Positions 4,131 to 27,759 of a DNA stretch of 34,368 bases are shown piece by piece. The notes under the pieces are model-generated. The model saw only the letters and a program-made list of their open reading frames with translations, was not told the origin of the DNA and did no database searches. The translations under genes and the position numbers were made by a program. Within the stretch, counting starts at the first letter, position 1. Every line of letters starts with the position of its first letter. Source of the DNA: Richelia sp. SL_2_1 (GTDB lineage: Bacteria; Cyanobacteriota; Cyanobacteriia; Cyanobacteriales; Nostocaceae); NCBI GenBank assembly GCA_012033205.1, contig JAAUSO010000065.1, forward strand, positions 1-34,368, in the 5' to 3' direction.

Positions 4131-4152
4131 CTTGGTGTAACTCGATCAATAA

Positions 4153-4177: not shown

Positions 4178-4185
4178 TACAATTT

Positions 4186-6396
4186 TTAATGTAATTTAAT
4201 TTTACTTACTGAAGAGGAATTTCTAGACTCAACTAAATCATCTTCCCCTACTCTTTCGACACTCATCTTGTAATATTGTTGATAATTACTTTGAGAAATA
4301 GCTGTTGATTCCTTAGACTTATTTGCTACCAAGCCTAAAATAGCAGTACCGGATACTTGAATTTCTTCTAGGGCTTGAGCGAATGCAGTACGCTTCAATT
4401 TACCCAAACCAGCCACTAACATTACACCATTAGTATTTGCAGCTAACAAATTAGCATCCGCAAAACCAACTATGGGTGTAGTGTCATAAATTACTAAATC
4501 AAAACTATTATGCAGTTCGTTCATCAAATCCTGCATTTTCACAGAAGCGAGTAATCTGGTAGAATCCGGTGGTATCGGACCCGCAGCCATGACATACAAA
4601 TTATCTTCAAGTGGCGATCGCTCTATGACGTTGCTCCATTCCAATTCAGAGGAAATAACATCTGTTAACCCCTGAATATTCATTAATCCCACACGCTGAT
4701 GTATGGTAGGACAGCGAAGATTTGCATCTACTAATAATACCCGTTGTCCCATTGCTGCTGCTGCTAAAGCTAACTGAATAGCCACCGTAGTTTTACCGTC
4801 TTCTGGTGTAGCCGAACTCACCACAAGTGAACGAATCGGTGTATCTGAACCCAAAAGCAGAATATTGGTGTAGAGAGAACGAAAAACTTCAAAAAATGCC
4901 GCACGAGTTGCTTGATGAACCCGACCAAGTTGGGCATCTTGCTTGGCACTAGCAGCAAGTTCTTTACTGAAAGGAACTACTCCTAATAACGGTAATCTGG
5001 TAGTTTCTTTCAAATCTTTAGAAGTATAGTAAACATTGCTCAACTTGTCTATAACCAAAGCAGCACCAACACCCAAAAGCAAACCTAAAGCTCCACCCAA
5101 AGCCAAGTTTCTTCTAGCACTTTGGGAAACAGCTTCCGGTTGTTCAACTTTAGTCAGTTGAGGATCTAATAATCTCCAAGGTTGCTGTTTCTGAGACTTC
5201 TCAATTTCCAAAGCTTGCTGCTTGGTTAAAAACTGGTTTAATCCTTCTGTAGCAATCTGTAACTCCCGCTGAATATTTTCGTAATCACGAGTCACTGTTG
5301 CCAAATTTCTCAACTCTGCATTTAGTCTTTCTATTTTATCAGATAAAGATAAATCGCGAGCTTGTAATGTTTGGATGCGATTTTGAAATTCGTTTTGGAC
5401 TCTGTTTTCCTCTGCATTCAGCATTGGAATCAAGTTAGTTGTCTTTTGCTGTAAAGCCTGTATCGTCGGATTATTATCTGTAAATACAGCAGACTGACTT
5501 TTAGTTTCAATCTGAATTTTCTGAATTTCGTCGAGAATTCTCTGATAACGAGGGTTTTCGCTGAGTATGGAATTGCCAACCCGCTCTCCTGGCTGTTGCG
5601 CCAACTCTTTTTGTAACTCTTGATACTGAGCTAGCATTTGCTCGTACTGCACCCGATTCTCTAATTGCTGTTGGGTAAAACTGGAAATTTGAGCGGATAC
5701 TTGTTGAGATTGTTGTGCAGGTTCAATTAAATTATTTACACTTCTGAGAGTTCGTAGTTTATTTTGTAGCTCTTCAACTCGCTGTCTTAACCCACCGTTG
5801 GTGATTCGCCCTTGAACAAAGTTAATCGCCTGATCGATATCTTGCTGACGTTCTTTCAAGCTATAGTTTAGATAAGCATCAGCAATTTCTTTTAAAACAT
5901 CGCTAACTAGCTGCTGATCTCCAGCGACATATCCTACTGTTAAAATATCTTTCTGTTTCGATCCAATAACCAAACCCTTAATAAATGATTCGTATTCCAG
6001 ATTTGGATATTTGCTCTGAAGATTTTCTACAACTGGATTTAATATTAACGGGCTTTTTAAAACTTGAATCGTTGTGGCAACATCTTTTTCTGTCTCCGGA
6101 GGTGCTATGGCATCTCTAGAACCCAAAGTTTGAGGAAGGTTGGCGATAGCTTTACCTTCTCCGGTGACTGGTTGAGTTAAAATATCAAATTGACCTTGAT
6201 ATATCGGAGGTTCTGACTCTGCTTTCAATACCGCAGCAGTTGCGACTACCCCGGTGACACCAACAATTAATAACGCTCTACGTCGTAAAGCTGCTCCTAC
6301 TTGTCCTAAATTCAATCCACCTTCTTCAACATCATTTAAAGGGGTACCTGCTTGAGAAAAGAGGTAAGGATTTTTATCTGACTTCAGCATAGTCAT
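4186..6396 (-). CDS. Wzc-like polysaccharide copolymerase / tyrosine autokinase
   Basis: The 736-aa protein has the full architecture of a Wzz-Wzc fusion. A Wzz domain begins about residue 28, with a first membrane helix at about 41-57 (LLIVGVTGVVATAAVL). A long periplasmic, Gln-rich coiled coil (about 195-410) follows, then a second membrane helix at about 427-447 (LALGGALGLLLGVGAALVI). The cytoplasmic BY-kinase domain has Walker A SATPEDGKTT (about 529-536), the A' motif LLVDANLRCP and Walker B FDLVIYDTTP (about 631-641). The tail contains a tyrosine cluster (SNYQQYYKMS), the expected autophosphorylation site. Such proteins set chain length and gate export of capsule or exopolysaccharide. 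It probably works with the glycosyltransferase cluster at 17-33 kb. An alternative start two codons downstream (MLKSD) is possible. Confidence 0.93.
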   Translation of the reverse strand: MTMLKSDKNPYLFSQAGTPLNDVEEGGLNLGQVGAALRRRALLIVGVTGVVATAAVLKAESEPPIYQGQFDILTQPVTGEGKAIANLPQTLGSRDAIAPPETEKDVATTIQVLKSPLILNPVVENLQSKYPNLEYESFIKGLVIGSKQKDILTVGYVAGDQQLVSDVLKEIADAYLNYSLKERQQDIDQAINFVQGRITNGGLRQRVEELQNKLRTLRSVNNLIEPAQQSQQVSAQISSFTQQQLENRVQYEQMLAQYQELQKELAQQPGERVGNSILSENPRYQRILDEIQKIQIETKSQSAVFTDNNPTIQALQQKTTNLIPMLNAEENRVQNEFQNRIQTLQARDLSLSDKIERLNAELRNLATVTRDYENIQRELQIATEGLNQFLTKQQALEIEKSQKQQPWRLLDPQLTKVEQPEAVSQSARRNLALGGALGLLLGVGAALVIDKLSNVYYTSKDLKETTRLPLLGVVPFSKELAASAKQDAQLGRVHQATRAAFFEVFRSLYTNILLLGSDTPIRSLVVSSATPEDGKTTVAIQLALAAAAMGQRVLLVDANLRCPTIHQRVGLMNIQGLTDVISSELEWSNVIERSPLEDNLYVMAAGPIPPDSTRLLASVKMQDLMNELHNSFDLVIYDTTPIVGFADANLLAANTNGVMLVAGLGKLKRTAFAQALEEIQVSGTAILGLVANKSKESTAISQSNYQQYYKMSVERVGEDDLVESRNSSSVSKIKLH

Positions 6397-7330
6397 AGTA
6401 AATTTTAATTGCTTGTATTACTTACGTAATTTTTCGCTTTCATTCCCGAAAGGCTCTATTTAGGTTGGTTTTCCGTTTGACCTTTACAATATCGATGCAC
6501 CATGTACTTCTAAAAAAGTTAACAAAACCTACACTCCAGACTATCTCCAAACTTTCCTCAAAGGTTGTTAAAAACCTATCTCACAGATACACTAGCCTGT
6601 TTGAAGTATTGAAGATGCCAAACTACAACTGGCGATGCACTATATATACAGTAACATTACGTAGCCGACGTTTGTTGATTCATTTACATCTATAATAAAT
6701 TATAGTTAAATTTATAGTTAAATTTTGATTAGTTTTTGAAAATTTTCAGATTCAGTTTTGACTACAGTAAGATAAATTAATTAATTTATTTATTAATTTA
6801 TTTATGCAAATTCACAACTTCAGACCCTTTATTACTGATAAATACGGTAATTTAACCGAAATTTAGCTCACTGTATTATTACTCATATCACAGAAATTTT
6901 TCCGGACAAAATGCGGGGTCAATAAATTTACATACATCACTTTTACCCCAATCGTTCCTCTAACAGATGTTTAAACTATAACATTTACCTCCCAATTGCT
7001 CATTGAACTAAGAACTGAGTAATTGATTAATGCTTACTATAGACGTAAATGACAGGACAGCGCGATCGCCTTAATAATTAGTATTGATTATTGCTCTAAA
7101 TCTTTTATGTAACAACGTGATGCTTTACATATATTACAAAGATTGTTTAAAGAATATATGTAGAAAATATATAGCAATCCTAAATCATATATGAGAATTT
7201 AGATCCCCGACTTCTTCAAGAAGTCGGGGATCTGAACACCGTACATTATCCTAATTTCGATATTTAGTATCAGCTTGGGGTATCCACAAGCAATCAAGCC
7301 GTCATAATATTAACGAATCAAAATTGATAA
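6397..7330. other. Long intergenic region, no supported gene
   Basis: More than 900 bases of AT-rich DNA lie upstream of the kinase gene and beyond the tRNA terminator. The 6465-6695 frame has no recognisable protein features and I do not accept it. Visible elements are a tandem TATAGTTAAATT pair near 6702-6726, a HIP1 site near 7062 and the palindrome at 7201-7233. Promoters for the kinase gene are likely near 6397-6480 but I cannot place one. Confidence 0.6.
7201..7233. repeat. Perfect 33-nt palindrome (AGATCCCCGACTTCTT type)
   Basis: AGATCCCCGACTTCTT, one central C, then AAGAAGTCGGGGATCT form a perfect 16-bp inverted repeat. It resembles a widespread dispersed cyanobacterial repeat. Partial relatives (GAGAAGTCGGGTTTTTA) occur near 8680 and 10909. 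No gene lies on either side within 100 bases. Confidence 0.85.
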
Positions 7331-7358
7331 ACAAAAACCTTTCTAATCTTAGAAAGGT
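7331..7358 (-). terminator. Rho-independent terminator of tRNA-Gln
   Basis: Read on the minus strand, ACCTTTCTAA and TTAGAAAGGT form a ten-base inverted repeat with almost no loop, followed by TTTTTG. It lies about 33 bases beyond the 3' end of the tRNA, so it most likely ends that transcript. Confidence 0.85.
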
Positions 7359-7390
7359 CATTACCTGCAAAATATTTTCAACTTAGTAAA

Positions 7391-7462
7391 CTGGGGCGCT
7401 AGGATTCGAACCTAGGAATGGCGAGACCAAAACCCGCTGCCTTACCGCTTGGCGACGCCCCA
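7391..7462 (-). tRNA. trnQ: tRNA-Gln (anticodon UUG)
   Basis: On the minus strand the acceptor arm TGGGGCG pairs with CGCCCCA, and the D-arm region is GCCAAGCGGTAAGGC. The anticodon arm is GCGGG-TTTTGGT-CTCGC with TTG at positions 34-36, and the T arm is CCTAG-GTTCGAAT-CCTAG. The discriminator is G at 7391 and CCA is not encoded. The 72-nt length and all four stems are normal. A terminator follows at 7331-7358. Confidence 0.97.
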
Positions 7463-7738
7463 TTAGCTTTACTTTAGTGAGTATAACAATAGGTTCGGAT
7501 AGTGTCAAGTAGTTTCGGTCTTGAATTTCCCCAAAAAACCATGTTAATCCGGTTTTGTTATGGGTAACTGAAAAATGGGATCGCTTAGTGCAAGCTCGTT
7601 GCGTTCGCGAACTTTATTTCTTAAAGACTAATTAATCTTGCTATTATATTGGGATTGCTTTTACCTATTTCCAGGTTAAAAGAAATCTACAAACATAGTT
7701 TCTTTAAGAGACTGCCAATTAGTGGTTTTAATTATTTT

Positions 7739-8059
7739 ATGTCTTCTAGTAAGTCAGGCATCAACTCCAGCGTATTTTTTTTGTCTTTAACGGATTTAAT
7801 TTTCAAAAAACTACGGTTGAAAAAAAATAAAATCCATGATTTTACTGGATGTGTTCCTGGAAGTGACTACGTATTTGAGATTGCAGAAGACCCAATGAAA
7901 GCTTATATGACAGCACAAAGTAAAGGTGTCAGATGTGGCGATTATATCATATTACAAATTGGTTCCGCATCTTGTCGATATCAAGTAGAGCAAATTGATT
8001 ACTATTCAAACCCATCAGATATGTGGATGGGTTTACTTAAAAAAGTCAGAGATGATTGA
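7739..8059 (+). CDS. Small hypothetical protein
   Basis: The protein is 106 aa from ATG 7739; the same frame is open back to a TTG at 7649, but that extension looks non-coding. The part from about residue 35 (FTGCVPGSDYVFEIAEDPMKAYMT…) to the C-terminus (YSNPSDMWMGLLKKV) has the composition of a folded, probably conserved cytoplasmic domain with Cys residues in TGCVPG, VRCGDY and ASCRY. The first 35 residues are basic and hydrophobic and may not belong to it. I do not recognise a family. No ribosome binding site is clear. It stands alone between tRNA-Gln and the RiPP exporter. Confidence 0.6.
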   Translation: MSSSKSGINSSVFFLSLTDLIFKKLRLKKNKIHDFTGCVPGSDYVFEIAEDPMKAYMTAQSKGVRCGDYIILQIGSASCRYQVEQIDYYSNPSDMWMGLLKKVRDD

Positions 8060-8786
8060 TTGATTTGACATCGAAATCGTTCAAATCATCCAAATATTCT
8101 TTGTATATCAAGTTAATTGACACTTAAACTACTTATTAAAAAGTAGTTAGATTGCTTGTATAAGATAACTTATATATTGCACAGAGCCGTATAATTAGCT
8201 AAATAATCAAAAATATCAATAAAAATATAAATAACGTAAAGCTGTAATATTTTTAGTCCATTTTAATAGACTTCTGCTATCAGACTGGGATTTGCAGTCC
8301 CAGACGGGTAAAAACGCAGTCAAACAATTAGTAAAACTTATAGAAAATGACGTTGCCAAAAGCAATCGTGTAATATCATATACCTAAAAAACTCTTCGTT
8401 GTAAGCTAACTTAGGTATTTGTAAGCAATAAATTATTTCATTTTTTATAGTATTTGCGTACTAAAAAATATTCGATTGAGAGAGTAATCTCTTCTCGCTG
8501 TTATGATTACCGAAAAAAAACCGCAGAGACAAGGCAGTGCGTTGCGGAGGCTCCCTCCGTTGTAGCAACTGCCGCGCAGAGAACACAGAGGAAAGAGATA
8601 AGGAGAGATGGGTAATTTTAGATCGGGATAGGAGTAATCGGAGACAGAGCGTCCAAATACTAGTTCCTTCCGGTTGAGAAGTCGGGTTTTTAGCATAAGT
8701 ATTTGTAACACCCTGACAAATTTTGATCAAAACCTGACTTCTGTGGTCACTATCATATTTATGTATCAATAAAAACTATTTGAATT
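8060..8786. other. Intergenic region with repeats upstream of RiPP exporter
   Basis: No gene is supported here; two long minus-strand frames across 8445-8769 overlap the repeat at 8506-8606 and look spurious. Visible elements are a small hairpin CTGGGA…TCCCAG at 8285-8303, the large repeat, a GAGAAGTCGGG piece near 8680 and the 12-base palindrome TTTTGATCAAAA at 8721-8732. The palindrome lies 55 bases before the exporter ATG and could be an operator, though nothing proves this. Confidence 0.55.
8506..8606. repeat. Composite CGCAGAG repeat with palindromic core
   Basis: CGAAAAAAAACCGCAGAG and CGCAGAGAACACAGAGG flank an imperfect hairpin at 8533-8573 (GGCAGTGCG…GGAGG, loop CTCC, CTCCG…AGCAACTGCC). 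The flanks match the repeat at 1236-1290, and the hairpin has the same plan as that at 16847-16886. It looks like one palindromic repeat nested in another repeat. Confidence 0.65.
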
Positions 8787-10598
8787 ATGCAAGCAGGCTT
8801 AAAAGAAAAATTACAAAGTACGCAGCGTCTATTGCCTGCTTTGCGATTAGTGTGGCAAAGTAGCCCTCGTTGGACAATCGCCCGTGTAATCATCCTTGTT
8901 GTTCAAGGTGTATTGCCAGTAATCTCAATTTATCTCGCCAAACTAATTATAGATACAGTCGCTGCCAGCCTCACCGCTGACGATAAAGCCGCAGCTTTTA
9001 ATAATGTGATATTTTTTGTTGTTCTAGCAGCAGCAGCGACATTATTAACTAACCTGGCTACCTCCCTCGCCCAATTAGTTACTAGCGCTCATTCCCAACG
9101 AGTAACTGATTATATGCAGGGAATAATCCAAGCTAAATCAATCGCAGCCGATTTAGAGTACTACGAAAATCCACTGTATTATGATGTATTGCAAAGAGCG
9201 CAACAAGAAGCACCTTACCGACCTCCCCAAATCCTCAATCGTTTGGCAGATGCTGGACAAAATGCAATTTCTTTGGTAGGGATGATTACTTTGTTACTGT
9301 CGCTGCACTGGGGAATACCCGGTGTTCTGTTTATTGTTTCCCTTCCGGCGATGTTAGTACGGGTGAAATATTCTCGGATTTTGTATAAATGGCAGCGGAA
9401 AGTTACACCAATGGAGCGTCAAGCAGGATACATCGGCTATATGCTGACAGTAGACCAATTTGCCAAAGAAATTCGGCTATTTAACTTAGGTAATCACTTC
9501 AGTCAGTGGTATCTTCGCATCCGCCGACAGATATATAAAGAAAGTCTGGCGATTTTAACCGGACGTTCTTTAGCTAACTTTACTGTAGAGGCGATCGCCG
9601 GTATTCTGATATTTATAATTTATTCCTATATCATCTACCAAACTATCAATGGTGTGCTGCAATTAGGGGATTTAGTGCTGTACTATCAAGCCTTACAGCG
9701 GGGACAGGGTAATATTAAAGGCTTATTGAACAGCTTATCTGCACTTTATGAAGATAACTTGTTTCTGGCAAATCTTTACGAATTCCTTGACATTGAGCCC
9801 AAGTTAATTGACCCACCAAACCCCAAACCAATTCCTCATCCGTTCAAAACTGGGATTGAATTTGAAAATGTCGGTTTTCAATACTCTACCACTACCCGCA
9901 AAGCGCTGAGAAATATTAACCTGACAATTAAACCGGGGGAAGTAGTAGCCTTAGTGGGGGAAAATGGTTCTGGTAAAACTACTTTAATTAAACTTTTATG
10001 TAGACTGTACGACCCCACATCAGGCAGAATCACCATTGATGGTATCGATCTAAGTCAATTTAAAACAGAAGAATTACGCCGTCAAATCAGCGTGATTTTT
10101 CAAGATTATGCCAAATATCATTTTACCGCCCAAGAAAATATCTGGTTGGGAAACATCGACTTACCACCGCACAGCGACAGTATCATTGAAGCAGCCCGTC
10201 GTTCTGGAGCCGATGACGTAATTACGAAATTACCCAAAGGTTACGATACTATTTTGGGTAAATTATTTGACAAAGGCGAAGAACTAAGTATCGGTCAGTG
10301 GCAGAAAGTTGCTTTAGCGCGGGCATTTTTGCGAGATTCCCAGCTAATTGTTTTGGATGAACCCACCAGCGCAATGGACCCCAAAGCCGAGTATGAGGTA
10401 TTTGAAAAGTTTCGTCAATTAATTAAAAATCAATCCGCCATTTTGATCAGTCATCGTTTATCTACCGTAAGAATGGCTGACCGGATATACGTAATGGATA
10501 ATGGAACAATCGTCGAAAGTGGAACCCACAACGAACTGATGGAATTAAAGGGTACTTATGCTCATTTATTTGAGATTCAAGCGAGTCAGTATATTTGA
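8787..10598 (+). CDS. ABC exporter (permease-ATPase), RiPP cluster transporter
   Basis: The 603-aa half-transporter has an N-terminal transmembrane domain (about 1-330, hydrophobic helices at about 35-55, 70-95, 150-185 and 255-285). The nucleotide-binding domain has Walker A GENGSGKTT (391-399), signature LSIGQ (500-504), Walker B LIVLDE (520-525) and the switch His556 (ISHRLSTV). No peptidase C39 domain precedes it, so it exports a finished product rather than cleaving a leader. This is the usual form of the lasso-peptide D protein, which pumps the mature peptide out and can give self-immunity. The other cluster genes follow after a 480-base gap containing a TnpB remnant, so the exporter has probably been separated from its operon by insertion. 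A polysaccharide or lipid substrate cannot be excluded. Confidence 0.9.
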   Translation: MQAGLKEKLQSTQRLLPALRLVWQSSPRWTIARVIILVVQGVLPVISIYLAKLIIDTVAASLTADDKAAAFNNVIFFVVLAAAATLLTNLATSLAQLVTSAHSQRVTDYMQGIIQAKSIAADLEYYENPLYYDVLQRAQQEAPYRPPQILNRLADAGQNAISLVGMITLLLSLHWGIPGVLFIVSLPAMLVRVKYSRILYKWQRKVTPMERQAGYIGYMLTVDQFAKEIRLFNLGNHFSQWYLRIRRQIYKESLAILTGRSLANFTVEAIAGILIFIIYSYIIYQTINGVLQLGDLVLYYQALQRGQGNIKGLLNSLSALYEDNLFLANLYEFLDIEPKLIDPPNPKPIPHPFKTGIEFENVGFQYSTTTRKALRNINLTIKPGEVVALVGENGSGKTTLIKLLCRLYDPTSGRITIDGIDLSQFKTEELRRQISVIFQDYAKYHFTAQENIWLGNIDLPPHSDSIIEAARRSGADDVITKLPKGYDTILGKLFDKGEELSIGQWQKVALARAFLRDSQLIVLDEPTSAMDPKAEYEVFEKFRQLIKNQSAILISHRLSTVRMADRIYVMDNGTIVESGTHNELMELKGTYAHLFEIQASQYI

Positions 10599-10604
10599 CA
10601 TTCT

Positions 10605-10625
10605 CCCCGACGTAAACGTGCGGGG
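10605..10625. mobile_element. Hairpin end of an IS200/IS605-type element
   Basis: CCCCG-ACGT-AA-ACGT-GCGGGG forms a near-perfect hairpin a few bases after the exporter stop codon and about ten bases beyond the TnpB stop. Subterminal hairpins of this kind mark the right end of IS200/IS605 elements and also overlap the guide-RNA region of TnpB systems. Only this end is seen; the left end and tnpA are missing. Confidence 0.65.
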
Positions 10626-10635
10626 ATTCCAGGAA

Positions 10636-10823
10636 TCACTTCTTGGAATTCCTCTTTCCACGACTCGACTTACTTGAAGGAGTTTCCCCACTCAAACAGA
10701 GGTCGATGTCTCCAGAGGCGTTAGTTCCGACGTCACCCGCCGTACTTAGACCTTTTTCTAATATGTTGCGTGCTGCATTCCAGTCCCGGTCTTGAGTATG
10801 TCCGCAATAAGGACAAATGTTAG
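10636..10823 (-). pseudogene. TnpB C-terminal remnant (IS200/IS605 family)
   Basis: The minus strand is open from about 10823 to the TGA at 10636-10638. It encodes PNICPYCGHTQDRDWNAARN followed by ILEKGLSTAGDVGTNASGD and a Ser/Lys-rich tail. CPYCG is the second half of the TnpB zinc finger, and RDWNAARNIL is the last RuvC motif with its conserved Asp. About 60 of the usual 400 residues remain, so it cannot be an active nuclease. The upstream part is cut off exactly where the dispersed repeat at 10828-10872 begins. It lies antisense between the exporter and B1. Confidence 0.85.
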
Positions 10824-10827
10824 GAGA

Positions 10828-10872
10828 GGGGTTAAGAGGGCGGGGTGAGGTAAAATTTGTATTGCACCCAAG
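10828..10872. repeat. Right half of a dispersed repeat shared with the window end
   Basis: From GGGGTTAAGAG through GGCGGGGTGAGGTAAAATTT to GCACCCAAG, this matches 34323-34368 apart from one G. The copy at 34287-34368 has both inverted arms; here only the right arm is kept, directly beside the truncated TnpB gene. Confidence 0.9.
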
Positions 10873-11080
10873 TGAAAACCGCTATATGTAGATGCCTTGA
10901 GTTTGTGAGAAGTCGGGTTTTTATTTTATAAATTCATCAACTTTATAAAGACGCAATAACGTAATTTTAAAGAGTAAATAAAGTGTAAAATAAAACATAG
11001 TACTACCACCACACTAGGGATTATATTTAATACAGCAAAACAAACGACACCAACCAACTAGCTTTTTTCAGTTAGAGAAA
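10873..11080. other. Probable promoter region of the RiPP operon
   Basis: This AT-rich gap precedes the B1 gene. It includes another GAGAAGTCGGGTTTTTA piece (about 10908). B1, B2 and the cyclase are tightly packed after it and the TnpB remnant lies before it, so the promoter for that operon should be here, but no clear -35/-10 pair can be assigned. Only weak GAGAAA precedes the B1 ATG. Confidence 0.4.
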
Positions 11081-11398
11081 ATGAGTTATCCACAACCCGA
11101 CCAACAGGAAATTGCAGAATCATCATTAGTAGTAGCGGCTCCAGACCAAATCTCTTCGGACTTGGGCGGCGAAGCAGTCATTTTGAATATGAAAACCGGA
11201 GTTTATCACGGTTTGAATGAAGTAGGGGCGCGAGTTTGGGATTTGATCGAGCAGCCAAAAGCTGTAAAAGAAATCAAACAGACACTTTTGGAAGAGTACG
11301 AAGTTGAGGCAGATGCTTGTACAAACGACCTGTTCTCACTACTGAATAATTTAAAAACCGCAGGGTTAATTCAAGTAATAAATGAAACTGCTGCGTAA
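11081..11398 (+). CDS. Lasso-peptide B1 protein, PqqD-like RRE
   Basis: The protein (105 aa) is a free-standing RiPP recognition element of the PqqD fold. Typical features are LGGEAVILNMKTGVYHGLNE (the β-hairpin seen in PqqD-like proteins), VGARVWDLIEQPKAV and the helical C-terminal half ending LKTAGLIQV. In lasso pathways B1 binds the YxxP part of the precursor leader and presents it to the B2 protease and the cyclase. The precursor at 13941 has that motif, so the pair is consistent. The gene overlaps B2 by 17 bases, which indicates translational coupling. Confidence 0.92.
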   Translation: MSYPQPDQQEIAESSLVVAAPDQISSDLGGEAVILNMKTGVYHGLNEVGARVWDLIEQPKAVKEIKQTLLEEYEVEADACTNDLFSLLNNLKTAGLIQVINETAA

Positions 11399-11816
11399 AC
11401 TTGGGAATCTGAGAAAAGTTGATTTTTACTTTCTATTTGTTACTTACTCTTTACTAGGAGCAGTTAGGTTAGGGTTGTGGTTACTAGAGTTTCGCATCTT
11501 ATTAAAAATAGTAAATAAACTCAGTAAGATAAAACTGCCACTTCCGAATACAACCCTGGGTAAAATTATTTGGGGAGTCAATGTTGCAACCCGCTATATG
11601 CCGGGTGGTGCAAAATGTCTAGCGCGGGCTTTAACCACACAAATATTAATGAGTCATAGTGGTTTTTCTCCCGAATTGTGCATCGGGGTTGCGAAAGCAG
11701 AGTCAGGATTAGAAGCCCACGCTTGGATTAAATATCAGGGATATGTTGTCATCGGTTATCTACCGGATCTACCACGCTACATTCAACTACCATCCCTCGA
11801 AGGAATTAAATTATGA
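11382..11816 (+). CDS. Lasso-peptide B2 leader protease (transglutaminase-like)
   Basis: The protein (144 aa) matches the Transglut_core3 type of lasso B2 enzyme: a hydrophobic N-terminal half, then RYMPGGAKCLARAL with the nucleophile Cys79, and LEAHAWIKYQG with His113. The third triad residue is less clear. The place about 12 residues after the His, where McjB-type enzymes carry Asp, is Gly here; Asp129 in YLPDLPRY is the nearest candidate. B2 removes the leader so that the new N-terminus can be cyclised. The gene overlaps B1 by 17 bases and the cyclase by four (ATGA). Confidence 0.9.
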   Translation: MKLLRKLGNLRKVDFYFLFVTYSLLGAVRLGLWLLEFRILLKIVNKLSKIKLPLPNTTLGKIIWGVNVATRYMPGGAKCLARALTTQILMSHSGFSPELCIGVAKAESGLEAHAWIKYQGYVVIGYLPDLPRYIQLPSLEGIKL

Positions 11817-13813
11817 GCGGCATCGTAGGTATTCATTACCTTGACGGTCGTCCTGTAGACCGCGAAAACTTAACAAAAATGGTTGATATATTGGCGCATC
11901 GCGGACCTGATGGTGCAGATACCTGGGTTGATGGGTGCGTCGGTTTGGGACATCGGATGTTATGGACTACTCCTGAGTCTCTGTTTGAAAAGCTGCCTTA
12001 TTGTAATCAAAGGGGTGACTTAGTAATTACAGCCGATGCTCGCATAGATAATCGTGACGAATTGATAGCTGCTTTACAGATAAATAATCGTCCTGCTGAT
12101 AAGATTGCAGATAGCGAACTGATATTGGCAGCTTACGAGAAATGGGGTGAAGATTGCCCGGAGCATTTACTAGGTGATTTTGCATTTGCGATTTGGGATG
12201 AGCGTAGGCAGATATTATTTTGCGCTCGTGATCATTTTGGGGTGAAGCCTTTTTATTATTACTCTTCTAATAATACTTTCGTTTTTGGTAGTGAGATTAA
12301 GGCAATTTTATGTTTACCACAAATACCTCGTTGTTTAAATGAGGCAAGGATTGCAGATTTTCTGTATCCGGTGATGGAAAATAAATCCATAACTTCTTAC
12401 AAAGATATTTTTCGTCTTCCTCCCGGACACAGTTTAATAGTAAGTAAGCAAAATAGTATACGCTTACATTCTTACTGGTCTCTTGAAATCGGAGAAGAAT
12501 TACGACTGAACTCTGACGAAGAATATGCGGAGGCTTTTCGAGACATATTTACTCAAGCAGTACGTTGTCGGGTGCGGAGTGCTTTTCCAGTAAGCTCTCA
12601 CTTGAGTGGTGGACTGGACTCTTCCGCAGTTAGTTGCGTAGCGCGGGACATTCTGCGCGAACAAGGCTCGCATCTGCATACTTTCTCGAATATTTTCGAT
12701 GATGTTCCTGAATGTGACGAGCGTTCTTACATTTATCCTGTTCTTAAGCAGGGTGGTTTTATCCCCCACTATGTATCTGCTGATAAATTGGGTCCTTTAT
12801 CTGAGTGGCAGCACTTTTTTCAATATATAGACGAAGCCTTTATTGGTCCGAGTCATTTTCTGCTTTGGGGACTTAACCGTGCAACTCAACAAGCAGGTAT
12901 GCGAATTTCTCTAGATGGTTTTGACGGAGACACGACTGTATCCCACGGTTCTGCATATTTCGCGGAGTTAGCGCGTCAGGGAAATTGGACTACTTTTATT
13001 GAAGAAGGCAAAGCAGTCTCCAAACATTTTGATACCTCACTTTCAGCAATTTTTCGTGAATATGGTATTAGCTATTTAGAAGAACTCGCAAAGCATGGGA
13101 AATGGTTGGATTTTGCAAAAGTAGTTCATCAGATTAGTCAACATTTCCAAGTTTTCCCTAAGAAGTTGTTTGTCTCTCATGGGCTTAAACCTCTATTACC
13201 AGAATCATTATTACAGTTTCACAAATGGCTGCGTGGAGAAAAATCTCAATTTAGAAATACTTCCTTAATTAACTCTAACTTTGCTCAAAAAAATCATCTA
13301 AATCGGCGAATTCAAGCTGAAAAAATACCAGCATCAGTTAGGGAAGACCAATGGCTTAGCCTTACCTGCGCTTTATTTACTCATACCCTGGAACTAGTAG
13401 ACCAATCCTCCGCAGCATTTTCTATTGAGTCGCGTCATCCTTTCATGGATAAACGATTAATTGAATTTTGCTTGAGCGTACCACCCGAACAAAAGCTTCA
13501 TCAAGGATGGTCTCGCATGATTATGCGTAGAGCAATGAATGGTATTCTTCCCCAAGAAATACAGTGGCGTGGCGGTAAAACCTCTATGAGTCCTAATTTT
13601 CGGCGCGGACTATTGCATTTAGACCGAAAAATTTTGGATGAGGTCGTTATTAATAACCCTACCGACATCCAAGAAATCGTGGCTTTAGAATCTCTGCATA
13701 AGTCCTATCGCGAATTTATATCTGACAAACAGATGGCAGAGGATCACTTAATGCCTGTTTGGAAAAGTGTAACCTTAGCTTTATGGCTGCGTCAAACAGA
13801 GATCAAACCATAA
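11813..13813 (+). CDS. Lasso-peptide cyclase, asparagine-synthetase-like (C protein)
   Basis: The 666-aa protein has an N-terminal glutamine-amidotransferase-like domain (about 1-215) and a C-terminal ATP-pyrophosphatase domain with SGGLDSS at 265-271. The chain begins MSGIVGI instead of MCGI, so the catalytic Cys2 of true glutamine-dependent asparagine synthetases is absent. This fits a lasso cyclase, which uses ATP to activate an Asp or Glu side chain of the core and links it to the core N-terminus without free ammonia. GAAGGA lies eight bases before the ATG, and the ATG overlaps the B2 stop. The precursor gene follows after 127 bases containing inverted repeats. A plain asparagine synthetase is unlikely given the neighbours. 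Confidence 0.9.
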   Translation: MSGIVGIHYLDGRPVDRENLTKMVDILAHRGPDGADTWVDGCVGLGHRMLWTTPESLFEKLPYCNQRGDLVITADARIDNRDELIAALQINNRPADKIADSELILAAYEKWGEDCPEHLLGDFAFAIWDERRQILFCARDHFGVKPFYYYSSNNTFVFGSEIKAILCLPQIPRCLNEARIADFLYPVMENKSITSYKDIFRLPPGHSLIVSKQNSIRLHSYWSLEIGEELRLNSDEEYAEAFRDIFTQAVRCRVRSAFPVSSHLSGGLDSSAVSCVARDILREQGSHLHTFSNIFDDVPECDERSYIYPVLKQGGFIPHYVSADKLGPLSEWQHFFQYIDEAFIGPSHFLLWGLNRATQQAGMRISLDGFDGDTTVSHGSAYFAELARQGNWTTFIEEGKAVSKHFDTSLSAIFREYGISYLEELAKHGKWLDFAKVVHQISQHFQVFPKKLFVSHGLKPLLPESLLQFHKWLRGEKSQFRNTSLINSNFAQKNHLNRRIQAEKIPASVREDQWLSLTCALFTHTLELVDQSSAAFSIESRHPFMDKRLIEFCLSVPPEQKLHQGWSRMIMRRAMNGILPQEIQWRGGKTSMSPNFRRGLLHLDRKILDEVVINNPTDIQEIVALESLHKSYREFISDKQMAEDHLMPVWKSVTLALWLRQTEIKP

Positions 13814-13858
13814 GTCGGACTAGGAGTATCGCTTTAAAAAGCTGCTCCTACCTAGACT
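13813..13858. promoter_or_regulatory. Hairpin between cyclase and precursor genes
   Basis: Directly after the cyclase stop, AGTC…TAGGAG…GCTTT pairs with AAAGC…CTCCTA…GACT in a nested inverted repeat. No T run follows, so it is not a standard terminator. It may stabilise or process the mRNA between the enzyme genes and the precursor, which often needs to be more abundant. Confidence 0.5.
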
Positions 13859-13904
13859 TAATTGGTTGAGGCTCTATGAAGTGTCACGTAATTAAGTCAA
13901 CCAA
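13855..13904. promoter_or_regulatory. Overlapping alternative inverted repeats upstream of precursor
   Basis: GACTTAATT (13855-13863) can pair with AATTAAGTC (13890-13898), and TTGGTTGA (13862-13869) can pair with TCAACCAA (13897-13904). The arms cross, so the two helices compete or form a pseudoknot-like fold. It is placed 37 bases before the precursor ATG. A regulatory role is inference only. Confidence 0.4.
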
Positions 13905-13940
13905 ACTGTAAATTAAACAACTAACAACAAGGTCACAAAC

Positions 13941-14117
13941 ATGAAAAAAGCTTACAACAGCCCTAACTTGACCGCTTACGGAAATATCGAAAGCATTACT
14001 CAAGCTTTTGGTAATGGTAGTGCTGATGATACAGTTGAAATAAATGGTAAAACTTTCAAGGGTTCCGATTTCGGTTTAAGTGGCTCCATAGATGGTATTA
14101 TTGTACCTAACCCATAA
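13941..14117 (+). CDS. Lasso-type RiPP precursor peptide
   Basis: The 58-aa ORF begins MKKAYNSPNLTAYGNIESIT. Tyr5, Pro8 and Leu10 form the Y-x-x-P-x-L leader motif, Gly14 is the usual conserved Gly, and Thr20 is the expected penultimate leader residue. AAGG lies about ten bases before the ATG. If cleavage follows Gln21, the core starts A22-F-G-N-G-S-A-D-D. Asp29 or Asp30 could then close a ring of eight or nine residues with Ala22. A start at Gly24 with Asp30 would give a seven-residue ring. The core would be about 37 residues, far longer than the usual 15-25, and ends SGSIDGIIVPNP. Its position between cyclase and kinase genes supports the call. Class membership is strong; ring size, cleavage site and topology are inferred. 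Confidence 0.85.
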   Translation: MKKAYNSPNLTAYGNIESITQAFGNGSADDTVEINGKTFKGSDFGLSGSIDGIIVPNP

Positions 14118-14148
14118 ATCAGTATAATCAGTTACATTTGTTTCATAA

Positions 14149-14200
14149 GGCTTTAAGGTGGGATATCAATCAATTATGCTATTGACACCCACCTCAAGCC
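14149..14200. promoter_or_regulatory. Long hairpin downstream of the precursor gene
   Basis: GGCTTTAAGGTGGG (14149-14162) pairs with CCCACCTCAAGCC (14188-14200), a stem of about 13 bp starting 31 bases after the precursor stop. There is no T run, so it may block 3' exonucleases rather than terminate transcription. Confidence 0.6.
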
Positions 14201-14275
14201 TAGAACCAATACCAATGGTAGACTCGACCAATTTGGTTAGCCTTACCAATAAATAACTGACAAAGTTATTTTGAG

Positions 14276-14298
14276 CATCAGGGAAGCGCTTCCTGATG
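14276..14298. promoter_or_regulatory. Second hairpin downstream of precursor
   Basis: CATCAGG-G-AAGC and GCTTCCTGATG make an almost perfect inverted repeat with one bulged G and nearly no loop. It is followed by TCTCAATTTC, a weak T-rich stretch. With the hairpin at 14149 it separates the precursor message from the kinase gene. Confidence 0.5.
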
Positions 14299-14389
14299 TC
14301 TCAATTTCTATTGAAACATCAAAATTTGTTAAAAACAGGACAAGAATCCTACAAAATTTATGTTTGTAAGTAAATACTAATACAAAAAA

Positions 14390-15259
14390 ATGTACGTTTA
14401 TACAGCTTACAATTTAGGAATCCATTCCGAACTATTCTTACCCGAACTTATCCCTACACAAAGAAAAGCAGATGTAGTTTTGCGCTTGGATAATCTCAAT
14501 AATATCCAAGAGAAAAAAAGCAATCGTGGTGATTATTTTCGGGGTAGTGTCGAAGGATTAGCTTCTTTTTTAGTTCGAGGTGGGCATGAGATTGTAATCT
14601 CACCGGAACTAGGAATAGATGAAGAAGTACTACGTCCTTTGATTTTAGGACCTATAATGTCTATAATTCTACGCCAAAGAGGATTATTAGTACTTCATGC
14701 TAGCGCAGTCAATATTAACAACCGAGCTGTGGCGTTTATGGGACATTCCGGTTGGGGTAAATCAACTTTAGTAACAGCTTTTCATCGCAAAGGTTATGAA
14801 GTTCTAACCGATGATGTTTTACCCATCCAAGTCGGTACACATAGTTCATTAGTTTTTCCTAGCTATCCCCAATTCAAGCTTTTACCCGATGCTGCAACTT
14901 CCTTGGGGCAAAATACTGAAAGTTTATCTCCCATTTTCAAGGATGCGCCAAAGCTTGCCTATCAAGTAACGAGTGGTTTTGGACAAACTCCTTTACCACT
15001 CCAGCGAATTTATGTACTGGCTAAGGGAACTCAGCATGAGATTACTAGTCTACAACCACAACAAGGGTTTGTAGAATTAATACGCCACAGCCGTGCCATG
15101 ACTTTAATCAATGCTCCAGAGTTTGTTGCCGCTCATATGCGTTTATGTGGCGAACTCATTAGTAATGTCAGCTTGTGTCGCTTTACTCGCAAACCTTCTT
15201 TAACAGACTTACCTAAGCTTATTGATTTGGTAGAGGAAGATTTGGCACAAATACAATAA
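14390..15259 (+). CDS. HPr-kinase-like protein of the RiPP cluster
   Basis: The 289-aa protein has the P-loop GHSGWGKST (118-126) preceded by LVLHASAVNINNRAVAFMG, and TDDVLPIQ further on, as in HPr kinase/phosphorylase homologues. In the paeninodin-type lasso clusters a kinase of this class phosphorylates the C-terminal Ser of the precursor. Here the precursor ends in VPNP, so that target residue is absent; internal Ser42, Ser47 and Ser49 or Thr38 would be the alternatives. True HPr kinase is unlikely because it would normally have an N-terminal regulatory domain and sit outside such a cluster. The ATG has no clear Shine-Dalgarno sequence. Confidence 0.85.
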   Translation: MYVYTAYNLGIHSELFLPELIPTQRKADVVLRLDNLNNIQEKKSNRGDYFRGSVEGLASFLVRGGHEIVISPELGIDEEVLRPLILGPIMSIILRQRGLLVLHASAVNINNRAVAFMGHSGWGKSTLVTAFHRKGYEVLTDDVLPIQVGTHSSLVFPSYPQFKLLPDAATSLGQNTESLSPIFKDAPKLAYQVTSGFGQTPLPLQRIYVLAKGTQHEITSLQPQQGFVELIRHSRAMTLINAPEFVAAHMRLCGELISNVSLCRFTRKPSLTDLPKLIDLVEEDLAQIQ

Positions 15260-15286
15260 ATTGCATAAAAATTAGAGTATTTTATT

Positions 15287-15348
15287 AAGAGCGAATGGCA
15301 ATTCTTGCATTTACTGCGCTCTTCAAAGGTATTGCCATTATATTTTTT
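15287..15348 (+). promoter_or_regulatory. Competing hairpins with T run (possible attenuator)
   Basis: AAGAGCG (15287-15293) pairs with CGCTCTT (15317-15323), and AATGGCAAT (15294-15302) pairs with ATTGCCATT (15331-15339). The arms cross, so the helices are alternatives or a pseudoknot. A run of six T follows at 15343-15348. This could be a terminator with an anti-terminator between the kinase and nucleotidyltransferase genes. The structure is seen; the role is inferred. Confidence 0.5.
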
Positions 15349-15539
15349 CCAAGTCAAAGTCATTTTATTACAATATGCTTTCTTTGTATCTACTGACAGT
15401 TGATTTACAGTAGACTTATTTATTTAATTCATATGAAAACACTATAAAGAGTGCCGAACAAAACTTTCTTTGATGAAATTTAATTTGACATAACTTTCAC
15501 ATTAAATACTAAAAACTCCTCAAACCAACAATTAAACTT

Positions 15540-16669
15540 ATGAAAACCTTATCTAAACTTGATACTAAAAACCAGATAATCAATACTCGTCCTGAAATAG
15601 AATTACTTCTATCTTGCCTCAATCCTGATATCAATGATGCCATAACAGAACGCATCAAAACTTTAGTTAAACAAAATATTGATTGGCAATACTTAACTCA
15701 AATAGCAGATACACACGGGGTACTATCCCTAATGTATTCTCGCTTCAATAGTATTTGTCCAGAAGCCATACCCGAACCAATCTTAAATCAATGGCGCAAA
15801 AATTTTCAAGCTGTTGCCCAACGCAACTTATTTTTAACTGGCGAACTTGTTAATCTTCTCAAATTATTAAAACAACAAAATATCGTAGCCCTACCTTATA
15901 AAGGTCCAATTTTAGCTACTTTAATCTATAAAAATGTAGCTTTGCGACGCTTCGGTGATTTAGATATTATTGTGCAACAAAAAGATATTTTTGCAGTACG
16001 GGAACTATTAATAGCTCAAGGATATCAACCAAAAATAGAAATGACTGACGCGGAGTTAGTTAAATATCTAAATTCTAAAACCGAACATACCTATGATTTT
16101 ATTCATAACGATAAAAATGTTTTTCTAGAAATTCACTGGCGAATTGCACCGAAGTATATTACTCCTATCACTGCAAACCATTTGTGGGAAGATTTAGAAC
16201 CTTTTTCACTCGCTGGTACAACTATAAATAATCTACCTTTAGAATGTTGGCTACCAATCCTTTGTGTGCATGGTTCTAGACACGTATGGGAACGGCTATC
16301 ATGGCTGTGCGATATTGCAACACTAATTAATAAAAACCCAAATATAAATTGGCAAAAAGTAGTCCAACAAGCTGATATTTGGGGTGTCAGCGGATGCTAT
16401 TCTTGGGATTGTTCATGTCTCATGAATTATTTGGAGTTGAACTACCACCGACAATTTGGCAGCAAATAAAGAAGGTTGAACCTATATTAAAAAGTATCGT
16501 TCCTCAAGTATATCAGCAACTTTTTGCTACTGTTAGAACTTCCGATAAATTTATGGGAAGAACTTTTTATCATATTCAGGTAAGAGAACGTTTAAACCAT
16601 AAAATTCTTTATATTCAATCCTTTATTTACTGGTTGGTAAAGGGGAAAAAGGAGTTGGTTGGGAAGTAG
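15540..16669 (+). pseudogene. Nucleotidyltransferase-fold protein (PF14907 type), frameshifted
   Basis: The main frame 15540-16469 has ALPYKGPILATLIY and LRRFGDLDIIV, with the Gly-Asp-Leu-Asp of a nucleotidyltransferase core at 139-142, then FLEIHWRI. The expected continuation (GCQRMLFLGLFMSHELFGVE and on to 16669) is in another frame. The change is at a four-G run near 16381-16384; five G would restore one protein of about 377 aa. Proteins of this type often accompany asparagine-synthetase-like and HPr-kinase-like genes in RiPP clusters, where their job is not settled. Adenylylation or another nucleotide transfer to the peptide is possible but not shown. As read, the protein would lose its last 90 residues but keep the catalytic motif. 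Confidence 0.8.
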
Positions 16670-17096: not shown

Positions 17097-18479
17097 TTAA
17101 AAGGAATGCTTTTGTAAAGCATTGGAAATTTTGATTTCCTGCCATCTGAGACCAATCAAACCGGCTACAGAAAGCATATATCCTGGTTCTTCCATCTGAG
17201 TGAAAATTAAACCAAAAATTAACACACTGAGCATCATAAACTTGGAAAAATCATCCAAGCACAGCTTACGCCATACAATAGAGCAAAGATATAGGTAAGC
17301 CCCCAGTCCTAAGAATCCAAAATCTCCCCAAATCCCTGCCCAACCCCAAAAAGGAGAGAAAAAGCTGGAGTCTAACCAATACCCACGCACTGTTTGCCAA
17401 ACAGCTTCAGTGGCAGGATGAATAGTTGCTCCCAAAGGTCCTAGTAAATTCCAATAATCTTTTAACATCCACCCTCCTAATCGTCCGGTAGTATGACCAG
17501 GACCAAGACCTAATAACCAATTTAAAGGTGATTGATAATAGGAAGAGAAAATTCTTAAAGGTCCAAATTTAAGTATAGTAGCTGCACCATCCGGACCGTA
17601 TAATTCGGGTCTAATCCAAGTTCTGAAAGCCATAAAAGCTTCTAAATTTTGTATGCACCACCAAAATCCATAACTAATCAAAATAGCAGCTATTAAATAT
17701 TGTAGAGCAGTTTTAATATCTTTTAATTTAGTTAAGATTAATAGTAACCATGCTGCCAAGAAGACCACAACGACCTGCTTTGCATCTGCAAATAACAATT
17801 GAAGAAAAGCAGCAAAAAAAACAGCACCTCGTATCCAAAATGGAACAGTTTTTGCACTAACAAAGTAATAAAGAGCAAAGTATATTGAAACAGAAGCGCC
17901 GACAACATGACCAGACCCTGAAAGGTAGAAAACGCCTTGCACATTATCTTCAGCAGTCATACTGGTTACTCGCAAAATGCGCGCAGCTATTAGAAAATGT
18001 TGAGTTAAAGCTAAAAGTAGGTGTACTGAAGCAAAACCTAAAATCCATGCTCTAAATCGTTTGAGACTTTTAAGAGACATGGGGATAGAAATTATTGCCA
18101 GCACAAGTATAAAAGGTTCGGCAAGCAACATCAATGCTACAAATACATTAATTAACCCAGCTTTATTTAGAAGGGCGCTGGCAGTCATTACACCTAGTAG
18201 AAAGAAAATTCCAGTAATCAGGGATTTTGCTGTTAAGATTTGATTTCTATCCCTAACACGAGTTTTGACTATAACTATACCGCAAGCAATTGGAACTATG
18301 ACAAAGTGAACAAAATTAATTGGTGGGGGTGCGCCTAAACTATCAAGAATCCGGGGAAAAAAAGCAGTAGCAAATGATATTAATACAAGAGTTGAATTTT
18401 TGATAAATGCTTTTTTTTGCTTGTAAAGCTCTATTTCAGTGTTCACATATCCCGCTTTTTCTGGCATTAATTCAGTCAT
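17097..18479 (-). CDS. Wzy/O-antigen-ligase-like membrane protein
   Basis: The 460-aa protein is almost entirely hydrophobic, with about eleven to twelve predicted membrane helices and one large hydrophilic loop in the second half (about 285-375). The loop contains FRTWIRPELYGPDGAATILK and GLGPGHTTGRLGGWM. This topology, one long periplasmic loop before the last helices, is that of polysaccharide polymerases and O-antigen ligases. It is the last gene of the minus-strand exopolysaccharide cluster and lies one base from the GT4 gene upstream, so it is probably co-transcribed. It is the best Wzy candidate for the Wzx/Wzy system in this window. Polymerase versus ligase cannot be decided. Confidence 0.8.
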   Translation of the reverse strand: MTELMPEKAGYVNTEIELYKQKKAFIKNSTLVLISFATAFFPRILDSLGAPPPINFVHFVIVPIACGIVIVKTRVRDRNQILTAKSLITGIFFLLGVMTASALLNKAGLINVFVALMLLAEPFILVLAIISIPMSLKSLKRFRAWILGFASVHLLLALTQHFLIAARILRVTSMTAEDNVQGVFYLSGSGHVVGASVSIYFALYYFVSAKTVPFWIRGAVFFAAFLQLLFADAKQVVVVFLAAWLLLILTKLKDIKTALQYLIAAILISYGFWWCIQNLEAFMAFRTWIRPELYGPDGAATILKFGPLRIFSSYYQSPLNWLLGLGPGHTTGRLGGWMLKDYWNLLGPLGATIHPATEAVWQTVRGYWLDSSFFSPFWGWAGIWGDFGFLGLGAYLYLCSIVWRKLCLDDFSKFMMLSVLIFGLIFTQMEEPGYMLSVAGLIGLRWQEIKISNALQKHSF

Positions 18480-18480
18480 A

Positions 18481-19655
18481 TCATAACCTATCTTTAGAAA
18501 TTGAGACCTGTTGATAAATCTCCATTAATTGTTGGTAATTCTGATCTGCGGTATACTTGGCTTCAAATTCAAGCCTTGCTTCCTGACGCATTTGGGCTAA
18601 TTTCTCTGGATTTGCTAAAACCCACTTGACTTTATCTGCTAAATCTGCTGCATCCCCAGGACGAAAATGCAGCCCGGTTCTACCCGAATCTACTAATTCT
18701 GCGATCGCGCCAATATTAGCAGCAATCACAGGAGTTCCTTTAGCAAAAGCTTCAATTGCTACTCTACCAAAGGTTTCATACCATTTTGAAGGAAAAACTA
18801 AAAACTTAGCCTCTCCCATCAATTCATGCACTTGTGCCATTGGTTTGCGTCCAAGCCATTCTACTAATGGAAGTCTTTTTGTGGCTGCTACCACTTGGTC
18901 AGCTAAAGGACCATCTCCCACTATTTTCAGGGGAATTTGGTTATCCAAATGTTCCCAAGCGGCTAATAGTGTATCCAAGCCTTTTTCTACAGAAAGTCTG
19001 CCCACGAACAGTGCATAACCACCACTTCCATTTCCAACTTCTGGCTCCGGACGAACAAAATTTGGTTTAACTACAATTTTCTCTGCTGGAATACCACCAG
19101 CAATAAATTTTTGGCGAGCAAATTCAGTCAGAGTAATATATAAATCTACCATTTCGTCCAAGTTTTCATCGTGCGATGCACCCCCAACATCGTCGCTACT
19201 CCAGCGCTAGCAACTTTGTTTTCCCGATAACAACCATGGATTACTCCGGGATAAGGAATAATCTGTCCTAAGCAGTCTTCACAAACTTTACCATCGCGGA
19301 AAAACAAAGCATTTGGACAAAGAAGCCGATAATTATGTAAAGTCTGAACTACAGGAATTCCGGCTCGTTTAGCGGCATAGTAAACTGAAGGTGATATTAA
19401 AGGGAAAAAGTTATGTACGTGAACAACATCGGGACGATATTTTTGCAACTGATGCTCAATGGTTTGATAAGCTTCCCCAGACCAAACTGTATCCGCAGCT
19501 AAACGTAATTTACCCAACTTTGCTACACGGTCATTCGAGGCTTCGTATACTTCAACTTGCTGCCCCATTTCCCGTAAAAGGCTGACTTCAGCTTCATAGC
19601 ATTCGTCTTCTCCTCCTCGAATTTGGTAGCGGTTATGAATTGCTAGAATACGCAT
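18481..19655 (-). pseudogene. GT4-family glycosyltransferase, frameshifted
   Basis: The N-terminal half (19655 to 19146) starts MRILAIHNRYQIRGGEDECY with VVHVHNFFPLISPS and TLHNYRLLCPN, the acceptor-side Rossmann domain. The C-terminal half (19161 to 18481) has ALFVGRLSVEKGLDTLL and YETFGRVAIEAFAKGTPVI, the E-x7-E donor site. Joining the frames near 19155 gives TMKTWT-EMVDLYITLTEF, one protein of about 391 aa; one added base is enough. CAGGTAAC precedes the first ATG by about eight bases. It belongs to the exopolysaccharide cluster, between another GT4 and the Wzy-like gene. Either the gene has just died or the consensus has lost a base. Confidence 0.85.
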
Positions 19656-19692
19656 AATGCGTTACCTGATTAATAGGGCTTTAAAAATTAAA

Positions 19693-21000: not shown

Positions 21001-21126
21001 AACTCAAGTACGTTTTTACAAAATAAATTATATTTTCACTGGATATTTGGAATGTCATAACTATATTAGTAATTGAGATAACTTTTGGAATTTTTATTTA
21101 TTACATATAAATAAATAAAATAATCT

Positions 21127-22233: not shown

Positions 22234-22271
22234 TATTACCTCCCGCTAGTAGTAATTAATAATTTATGCAT

Positions 22272-24680: not shown

Positions 24681-24696
24681 TATAAATACCTTAAAT

Positions 24697-27753: not shown

Positions 27754-27759
27754 CAATAT

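Follow-up and report, generated by a model that had tools for sequence, protein, structure and literature searches.

Which product is made by a lasso-peptide operon whose precursor is predicted to carry a 37-residue core? The question is raised by a 34,368-base contig of Richelia sp. SL_2_1 (JAAUSO010000065.1; the whole contig is called the window here), part of a 7.55-Mb cyanobacterial genome. The initial annotation of this DNA described a lasso-type cluster with an unusually long core and offered three options for the tail: trimming, a role as follower, or a distinct lasso-like class. Our analysis points to a cyanobacterial lineage of lasso operons whose products have very long tails, a reading to which, with its full mechanism, we give a probability of about 0.55. 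B1 would bind the YxxP leader and B2 would cut after Gln21. The kinase K would phosphorylate Ser49 of an internal GSID sequence before cyclization, and C would activate Asp30 and couple it to the Ala22 amino group to form a nine-residue macrolactam through which the chain would be threaded, with 28 residues of loop and tail. The nucleotidyltransferase N, where intact, would add a sugar or nucleotide to the Ser49 phosphate and D would export the product. In addition, the far tail would form a disulfide in about half of the family, and a specificity cassette (the C synthetase domain, A and K) would move between operons while leader binding, protease, export and N stay.

The window holds a complete lasso-peptide operon with the forward-strand gene order D, B1, B2, C, A, K, N (coordinates in Table 1). 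B1, B2, C and A all score above the NCBIfam cut-offs of lasso families, C as a 'lasso peptide isopeptide bond-forming cyclase' (NF033535), in agreement with the lasso machinery claimed earlier. Every gene and residue that the initial annotation had listed is present: the RRE protein B1, Cys79 and His113 of B2, the SGGLDSS signature of C, the exporter and a 58-residue peptide with Y5, P8, L10, Gly14 and Thr20. K and N lie within the segment it had covered, yet were not named. B1 also matches solved lasso B1 chains (9x90_B, E 2e-17; TbiB1 5v1u, E 5e-11), and the B2-type family PF13471 has a single match in the whole genome of the window. Pfam matches assign residues 62-166 of C to an amidotransferase and residues 242-660 to a synthetase.

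Relatives were collected from 70 regions (stretches of up to 20 kb) fetched around precursor profile matches in 69 genomes, namely 65 of the 90 other genomes of the window's family that have a match, mostly the strongest matches, plus four from outside the family. When the 58-residue precursor was used as a single query no relatives were found in viral or genome contig collections, whereas profile searches of whole genomes succeeded and found precursor relatives in 91 of the 217 genomes of the family, the window's own counted. In a survey of the phylum with NF033528, 23 of 386 genomes matched at E 0.01 and 10 exceeded the cut-off. The fetched regions and the window together contain 79 clusters with a C gene. 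Cys79 and His113 of B2 are each identical in 68/68 full-length sequences, and the C signature is SGGLDSS in 78/79 clusters and SGGIDSS in one (SGGxDSS in 79/79). The gene set is not a chance assembly, because it recurs: K lies downstream of C in 78/79 clusters, and the exception (L089) directly precedes a second cluster with K. A follows C in 79/79, as expected of regions chosen via A. Most clusters (52) encode a single A, 16 encode two, 10 encode three and one encodes six. B1 is found directly upstream of C in 73/78 clusters and B2 in 68/78, some gaps being contig ends. D is downstream of K in 68/79, and lies upstream of B1 in the window and a few relatives. Two same-genus loci (L134 and L109) have the order of the window. 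In L104, L108, L113, L116, L124 and L129 the interval between D and N encodes an additional PqqD-like protein with a weaker score (83-93 bits). Between D and B1 the window contains a remnant of the C-terminus of a TnpB-type transposase (about 10640-10881, reverse strand; PF07282, E 2.8e-6).

The precursor profile matched 124 open reading frames. Removal of two with unreadable stretches left 122, of which 120 are distinct, and these were split by hand-made patterns into 13 short-type and 107 long-type peptides, the window's among the latter. A 15-sequence alignment has M1, K2, Y5, P8, G14, T20 and D30 invariant. Thr stands six residues past the leader Gly/Ala, that is at position -2, in 120/120 peptides, in accord with the earlier predicted cleavage after T20-Q21 and its 37-residue core. 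The long-type cores, which come from 66 loci, have 30 to 58 residues with a median of 43, and 104/107 exceed 33 residues; thus the window core is long, as annotated, but no oddity in its family. Short-type cores have 24 to 39 residues, and eight of the 13 peptides end in Ser.

An acidic residue seven to nine places after the cleavage site, whose absence from homologues the initial annotation had named as the observation that would count against it, is present in 103/107 long-type cores, and all have one at +8 to +10. Asp is found at +9 in 100 of the 107, at +8 in five and at +10 in five, some cores having more than one. Because Asp is at +9 in nearly all of these cores, the window ring is predicted to run from Ala22 to Asp30. 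Of the two ring closers proposed earlier Asp30 is therefore retained, and Asp29, at the +8 position, was rejected. A start at Gly24 with a seven-residue ring (Gly24-Asp30) had been considered since core position +3 is Gly in 97/120 peptides. It was set aside as less likely, because the universal Thr takes position -2 when the core begins at Ala22, and because some peptides lack Gly at +3. Five long cores (L077, L080, L123, L064 and L128) have Asp at +10 rather than +9 and predicted ten-residue rings, and L129 and one L076 core have Asp at +8 and a predicted eight-residue ring. L075 (17859-18643) contains three tandem short-type precursors and, after them, a divergent kinase (287 bits); the fetched stretch, which stops shortly afterwards, includes no second C gene.

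The tails share an internal motif. G-[S/T]-x-[D/N] was found after core position 14 in 81/107 tails (500 shuffles gave a mean of 13.3 and a maximum of 26) and in 59 of the 77 representatives with less than 70% identity (shuffle maximum, 18). Wider patterns find the motif in 104/107 cores, the hydroxyl residue being Ser in 99 and Thr in five, and its median core position is 28, the position of Ser49 in the window. None of the 13 short-type peptides has a GSxD motif, and long-type cores rarely end in Ser (6/107).

Cysteines are found in pairs: 53 long cores have none, 53 have two and one has a single residue (38, 38 and one among the 77 representatives), whereas random placement gave a mean of 46 cores with an odd number and a minimum of 29 in 5000 trials. 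No Cys occurs in the first 15 core residues of long-type cores, and in 49/53 two-Cys cores both residues follow the motif Ser. When at most 66 uniform long clusters per tree were scored (five of the 71 long clusters have both kinds and were omitted), the state changed at least eight times on the K tree, with minima of 8 to 14 across the gene trees. The state is thus not a single inherited trait. Gain and loss of cysteines in pairs suggest a disulfide and hence a far tail that is kept, and we conclude that the far tail is probably retained, and probably carries a disulfide, in half of the family. An odd number occurs in a single long core, encoded by one tandem precursor of L074 (9782-10030), in which Cys replaces the motif Ser of its siblings.

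Substitution rates were compared in 18 non-overlapping pairs that match in length and motif placement at 75-99.5% DNA identity, some being paralogues of the same locus. The ratio of nonsynonymous to synonymous rates (dN/dS) was 0.24 (0.16-0.35) in the leader, 0.57 (0.30-1.05) in the ring, 0.44 (0.32-0.61) in the mid tail, 0.29 (0.10-0.86) in the motif and 0.64 (0.38-1.10) in the segment after the motif. The latter evolved faster than the leader in 99.5% of bootstraps. The far tail is thus closer in rate to the ring than to the leader, although the case against neutral evolution of the segment after the motif is weak.

K provides a candidate partner for the motif. Its residues H103 (80/80 sequences), K124 (80/80), D141 (78/80) and D142 (80/80) are, in our reading, those of the published His-Lys-Asp-Asp motif on which characterized lasso kinases depend (PMC9266682). 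The K fold model (mean predicted local distance difference test score, 92) matches PEPCK (best E 4e-8) and HprK/P (best E 6.5e-6). A sequence search of the PDB gave only one match, uninformative at E 0.14. An 11-locus scan found K relatives in Scytonema, Brasilonema, Tolypothrix, Calothrix, Plectonema, Rhizonema, Nostoc and Fortiea. The characterized lasso kinases are described as targeting the C-terminal Ser of the precursor (PMC9266682). LppK, a related kinase, is reported to phosphorylate Ser3 of its core and not to accept Thr or Tyr substitutes (PMC13381572), so a non-terminal acceptor is possible. Given this precedent, the near-constant presence of K in the clusters, the internal GSxD and the scarcity of C-terminal Ser in the long type, we propose Ser49 as the phosphate acceptor.

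In N, residues K121, G122, R136, D140 and D142 are kept in 48/48 sequences. By analogy with pseudomycoidin, to which one or two hexoses are reported to be added (PMC9266682, PMC8498205), N would act on the phosphate added by K. The window gene has a frame change near 16385, relatives with a single frame aligning as 15540-16385 plus 16382 onward. The part matched by PF14907 is open and the match ends about at the frame change, which is either a mutation or a sequencing or assembly error.

The phosphorylated Ser could also become the end of the product, were the tail trimmed just after the motif Ser, or by a carboxypeptidase, to a class II lasso of about 28 residues resembling paeninodin. We consider this unlikely, although several observations fit it. 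The known kinases use a C-terminal Ser and the majority of short-type precursors end in one, three paralogues at L133 end in LTFS, LTFSGTF and LTFSGTF, 28 residues agrees with the sizes given in a 2026 review (PMC13352647), and dN/dS past the motif does not fall convincingly below 1. However, trimming would discard the strictly paired cysteines, nearly all of which follow the motif, and B2 is the sole protease among the genes tracked, the other neighbors not having been systematically annotated. The trimming option of the initial annotation is possible for the Cys-free half of the family, which includes the window, whereas for the Cys-paired half retention is the best supported outcome.

An unthreaded macrolactam or a linear phosphopeptide in place of a threaded lasso is a rather improbable product. 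It is suggested by the clusters of linear polyphosphorylated peptides (LPPs), which share tailoring genes with the window (RRE, HprK-like kinase, NTP transferase and MsbA-like exporter) and are reported to release a phosphorylated core of 45 residues (PMC13381572). The expressed LPP pathway, as described there, does without a lasso cyclase or B2 and uses a different, signal-peptidase-like leader peptidase in their place. In contrast, the window has B2 and C with their catalytic residues, and Asp at +9 is nearly invariant in its relatives.

The preferred assignment to threaded, long-tailed lasso peptides gains a further element from comparison of the window with L134 (the same region as L130) in 150-base pieces. 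Upstream, identity was 88-100% at 3901-10594, with a few pieces matched in part, and 91-99% at 11101-12300; the interval 10651-11100, in which the insertion sequence remnant lies, matched poorly. From 12301 to about 15450 most pieces found no match and the rest gave 71-73%. Downstream, from 15451 to about 16700, identity was again 86-100%, the last 57 bases reaching 100% and the rest 86-97%. The replaced block is thus about 3.2 kb. L109 has the same two borders with lower flank identity, its weak matches (69-77%) extending slightly further into C. The upstream border falls at about C residue 162, where the amidotransferase match ends and before the synthetase match begins. Protein identities to L130 are 98% for D, 99% for B1, 93% for B2, 97% for the N-terminal part of C and 95% for N, versus 39% for both the synthetase part of C and K. 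As L130 has a short-type precursor, one chassis (D, B1, B2 and N) serves both precursor types.

This pattern is not confined to one pair. Seventeen cluster pairs from 16 loci have at least 85% identity in the N-terminal part of C and at most 65% in the synthetase part, versus 25 pairs above 75% in both. On FastTree trees of 78 clusters (one cluster without a readable core was left out; seven are short type, six on the D and N trees), the short/long type changed once on the C synthetase-domain tree and once on the K tree, versus seven times for B1, seven for B2, six for the N-terminal part of C, five for D and five for N. When D and N were redone with IQ-TREE (quick mode), five changes were again obtained for each and a single short-type clade was rejected (p 6e-88 and 3e-32). 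Note that the groups for these runs were named beforehand only in part, the FastTree trees having come first, and that in the D run a set of identical D rows fell on both sides. Together the change counts and pairwise identities indicate that the C synthetase domain, precursor and kinase are for the most part inherited together. As judged from sequence, then, the C synthetase domain, A and K exchange as one cassette. L109, L104 and L077 contain C-A-K units that lack their own B1 and B2 just upstream and adjoin either a complete operon or a D gene, which hints that the cassette may be duplicated as well; L080 has a similar unit at a contig end.

Travel of the precursor type with the C synthetase domain and K might also be expected if the C-terminal block were a follower that K or C recognizes and that is removed later, and the slow evolution of the motif would agree with this. 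The idea is nonetheless very doubtful. The segment after the motif has a ring-like rate above that of the leader, and paired cysteines are unexpected in a discarded segment. The follower option raised by the initial annotation is disfavored on these rates, wide as their intervals are. Misassembly or a dead cluster is barely credible, although D is placed upstream, the insertion sequence remnant separates D from B1 and N changes frame, since D, B1, B2, C, A and K are all open frames and L134 and L109 share the gene order, their DNA being 82-96% identical to the window in the blocks that match outside the cassette.

Several points weigh against the long-tailed lasso reading. Cysteine pairing bears on the window peptide only indirectly, because that peptide is Cys-free, and the dN/dS interval of the segment after the motif touches neutrality, 5% of bootstraps being at or above 1. 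Both the long/short division and the tail motif were defined after the sequences had been inspected. K falls below the HPr kinase cut-offs (Pfam PF07475, 19.1 versus 33.3 bits; NCBIfam likewise), and the known HprK-type lasso kinases are described as acting on a C-terminal Ser, whereas the window precursor ends in Pro. N is frame-broken in the window and lies downstream in just 48/79 clusters, and the B1 and B2 counts given above mean that some clusters were incomplete in this search. The residue at +1 is often bulky (Ile in 21, Val in 16 and Phe in 11 of 107), and the N-terminal lasso residues seen before are given as Gly, Cys, Ser and Ala, with Asn newly reported (PMC12670498). Our literature searches found no characterized product of the window's lasso family. 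Finally, the ring, its threading and isopeptide bond, retention of the window tail, the site and time of phosphorylation and the action of N are parts of the scheme that we infer.

By the scores in Table 1 the window A and C are members of known families, NF033528 (lasso_cyano) and NF033535. The NF033528 model has 35 positions and its match covers residues 1-30 of the window peptide, the leader and ring, and does not reach the tail, motif or Cys pairs. The family appears to be a widespread branch of a known lasso kind, and the 'distinct lasso-like class' was an overstatement: the enzymes are ordinary lasso enzymes, although the long-tail type does form a separate lineage in its C synthetase domain and K. 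Paeninodin and pseudomycoidin have the same combination of lasso enzymes, an HprK-like kinase with His-Lys-Asp-Asp and a nucleotidyltransferase. Unlike them, the window peptide has no C-terminal Ser, has a conserved internal GSxD and has a longer predicted core, and its leader has YxxP where WxxP is reported for paeninodin-like leaders (PMC13381572).

The same 2026 review (PMC13352647) gives pandonodin, with 33 residues in total, the longest tail (18 residues), and achromonodin-1, with 30 residues in total, the largest loop (20 residues). The long-type peptides resemble pandonodin and class IV lassos in tail length, and half of the relatives (53/107) have two Cys fit for a tail-tail disulfide, but the window peptide, lacking Cys, lacks this class IV feature. 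Nearly all long-type cores (104/107) are longer overall than the 33 residues reported for pandonodin, with loop and tail inseparable by sequence. Long predicted cores as such are not new, because cores of 21-42 residues have been predicted in rumen bacteria (PMC7533575) and a cleaved core of 36 residues, said to be conserved in Nostocales, in lasso P of Cyanocohniella sp. LLY (PMC9332814). The latter is a prediction from one genome with Gly placed at the N-terminus, and the accessible text of that report contains no mention of a lasso kinase, tail motif, cysteine pairing or cassette exchange. No cyanobacterial lasso product was among the literature matches listed, and neither was recombination or domain exchange in lasso clusters, most subscription journals lying outside the scope of the search. 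As far as these searches reach, the tail features and the cassette exchange are new.

The operon is flanked by a Wzc-like gene on one side and by glycosyltransferase, flippase-type, pyruvyl-transferase and WecG-like genes (17097-32757) on the other. An orthologue of this Wzc-like gene, with at least 55% identity, lies within the fetched stretch at 30 of 70 lasso loci. Each of ten genomes examined has one Wzc-like copy at 65% identity or more, all others being at 50% or less, and that copy is near the lasso genes in seven of the genomes and far from them in three. LPP-related clusters of Bacilli are likewise reported to sit in capsular polysaccharide loci (PMC13381572). Since the operon often adjoins one conserved exopolysaccharide locus, a sugar-phosphate on the tail may tether the peptide to the sheath, although any tie between peptide and polysaccharide is speculation.

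Table 1. Features of the lasso operon and its surroundings in the window (positions in bases of the contig).
Feature	Coordinates	Strand	Basis or remark
ParA/AAA_31-type protein, labelled Wzc-like here	4186-6396		Pfam covers the ATPase part alone
D, ABC exporter, 603 aa	8787-10598	+	Pfam ABC_tran, E 7e-36
B1, PqqD-like RRE protein	11081-11398	+	NF033536, E 3e-23, 81.8 bits (cut-off 80)
B2, leader protease, C79 and H113	11382-11816	+	NF033537, E 2.7e-27, 95.7 bits (cut-off 33)
C, lasso macrolactam synthetase, 666 aa	11813-13813	+	NF033535, 1025 bits (cut-off 525)
Cassette: C from about residue 162 to its end, A, K	12301-15490 (borders approximate)	+	Identity drop versus L134
A, precursor, 58 aa	13941-14117	+	NF033528 'lasso_cyano', 46.1 bits (cut-off 33)
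A leader, residues 1-21, YxxPxL ... T20 Q21	13941-14003	+	NF033528
A predicted 9-residue ring, Ala22-Asp30 (core +1 to +9)	14004-14030	+	Asp at +9 in relatives
A predicted loop and tail, 28 residues jointly	14031-14114	+	Length class common to the family
Conserved tail motif G48-S49-I50-D51	14082-14093	+	G[ST]x[DN] in relatives
K, HprK-like kinase, 289 aa	14390-15259	+	TIGR04352, E 1e-8, below cut-off
N, PF14907 nucleotidyltransferase, first frame	15540-16469	+	PF14907, E 6e-57, residues 46-283
N C-terminal remainder, other frame	16382-16669	+	Relatives align onward in that frame

If the tails are kept, nearly all members of this family would exceed pandonodin, and cores of 30-58 residues would prove to be within the reach of lasso cyclases. 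The internal GSxD motif renders the choice of acceptor by K directly testable. The natural exchange suggests which parts must match (the C synthetase domain, A and K) and which are interchangeable (B1, B2, exporter and N), a pattern that is a possible rule for the design of hybrid lasso pathways. At its furthest reach, and as a long shot, the long type may be a lineage that comprises the longest natural lasso peptides, with an internal phospho- or phosphoglyco-Ser made by K and N, a tail disulfide in half of its members and re-specification in one step by cassette exchange, its sugar-phosphate tail perhaps tethering the peptide to the polysaccharide sheath of the cyanobacterium.

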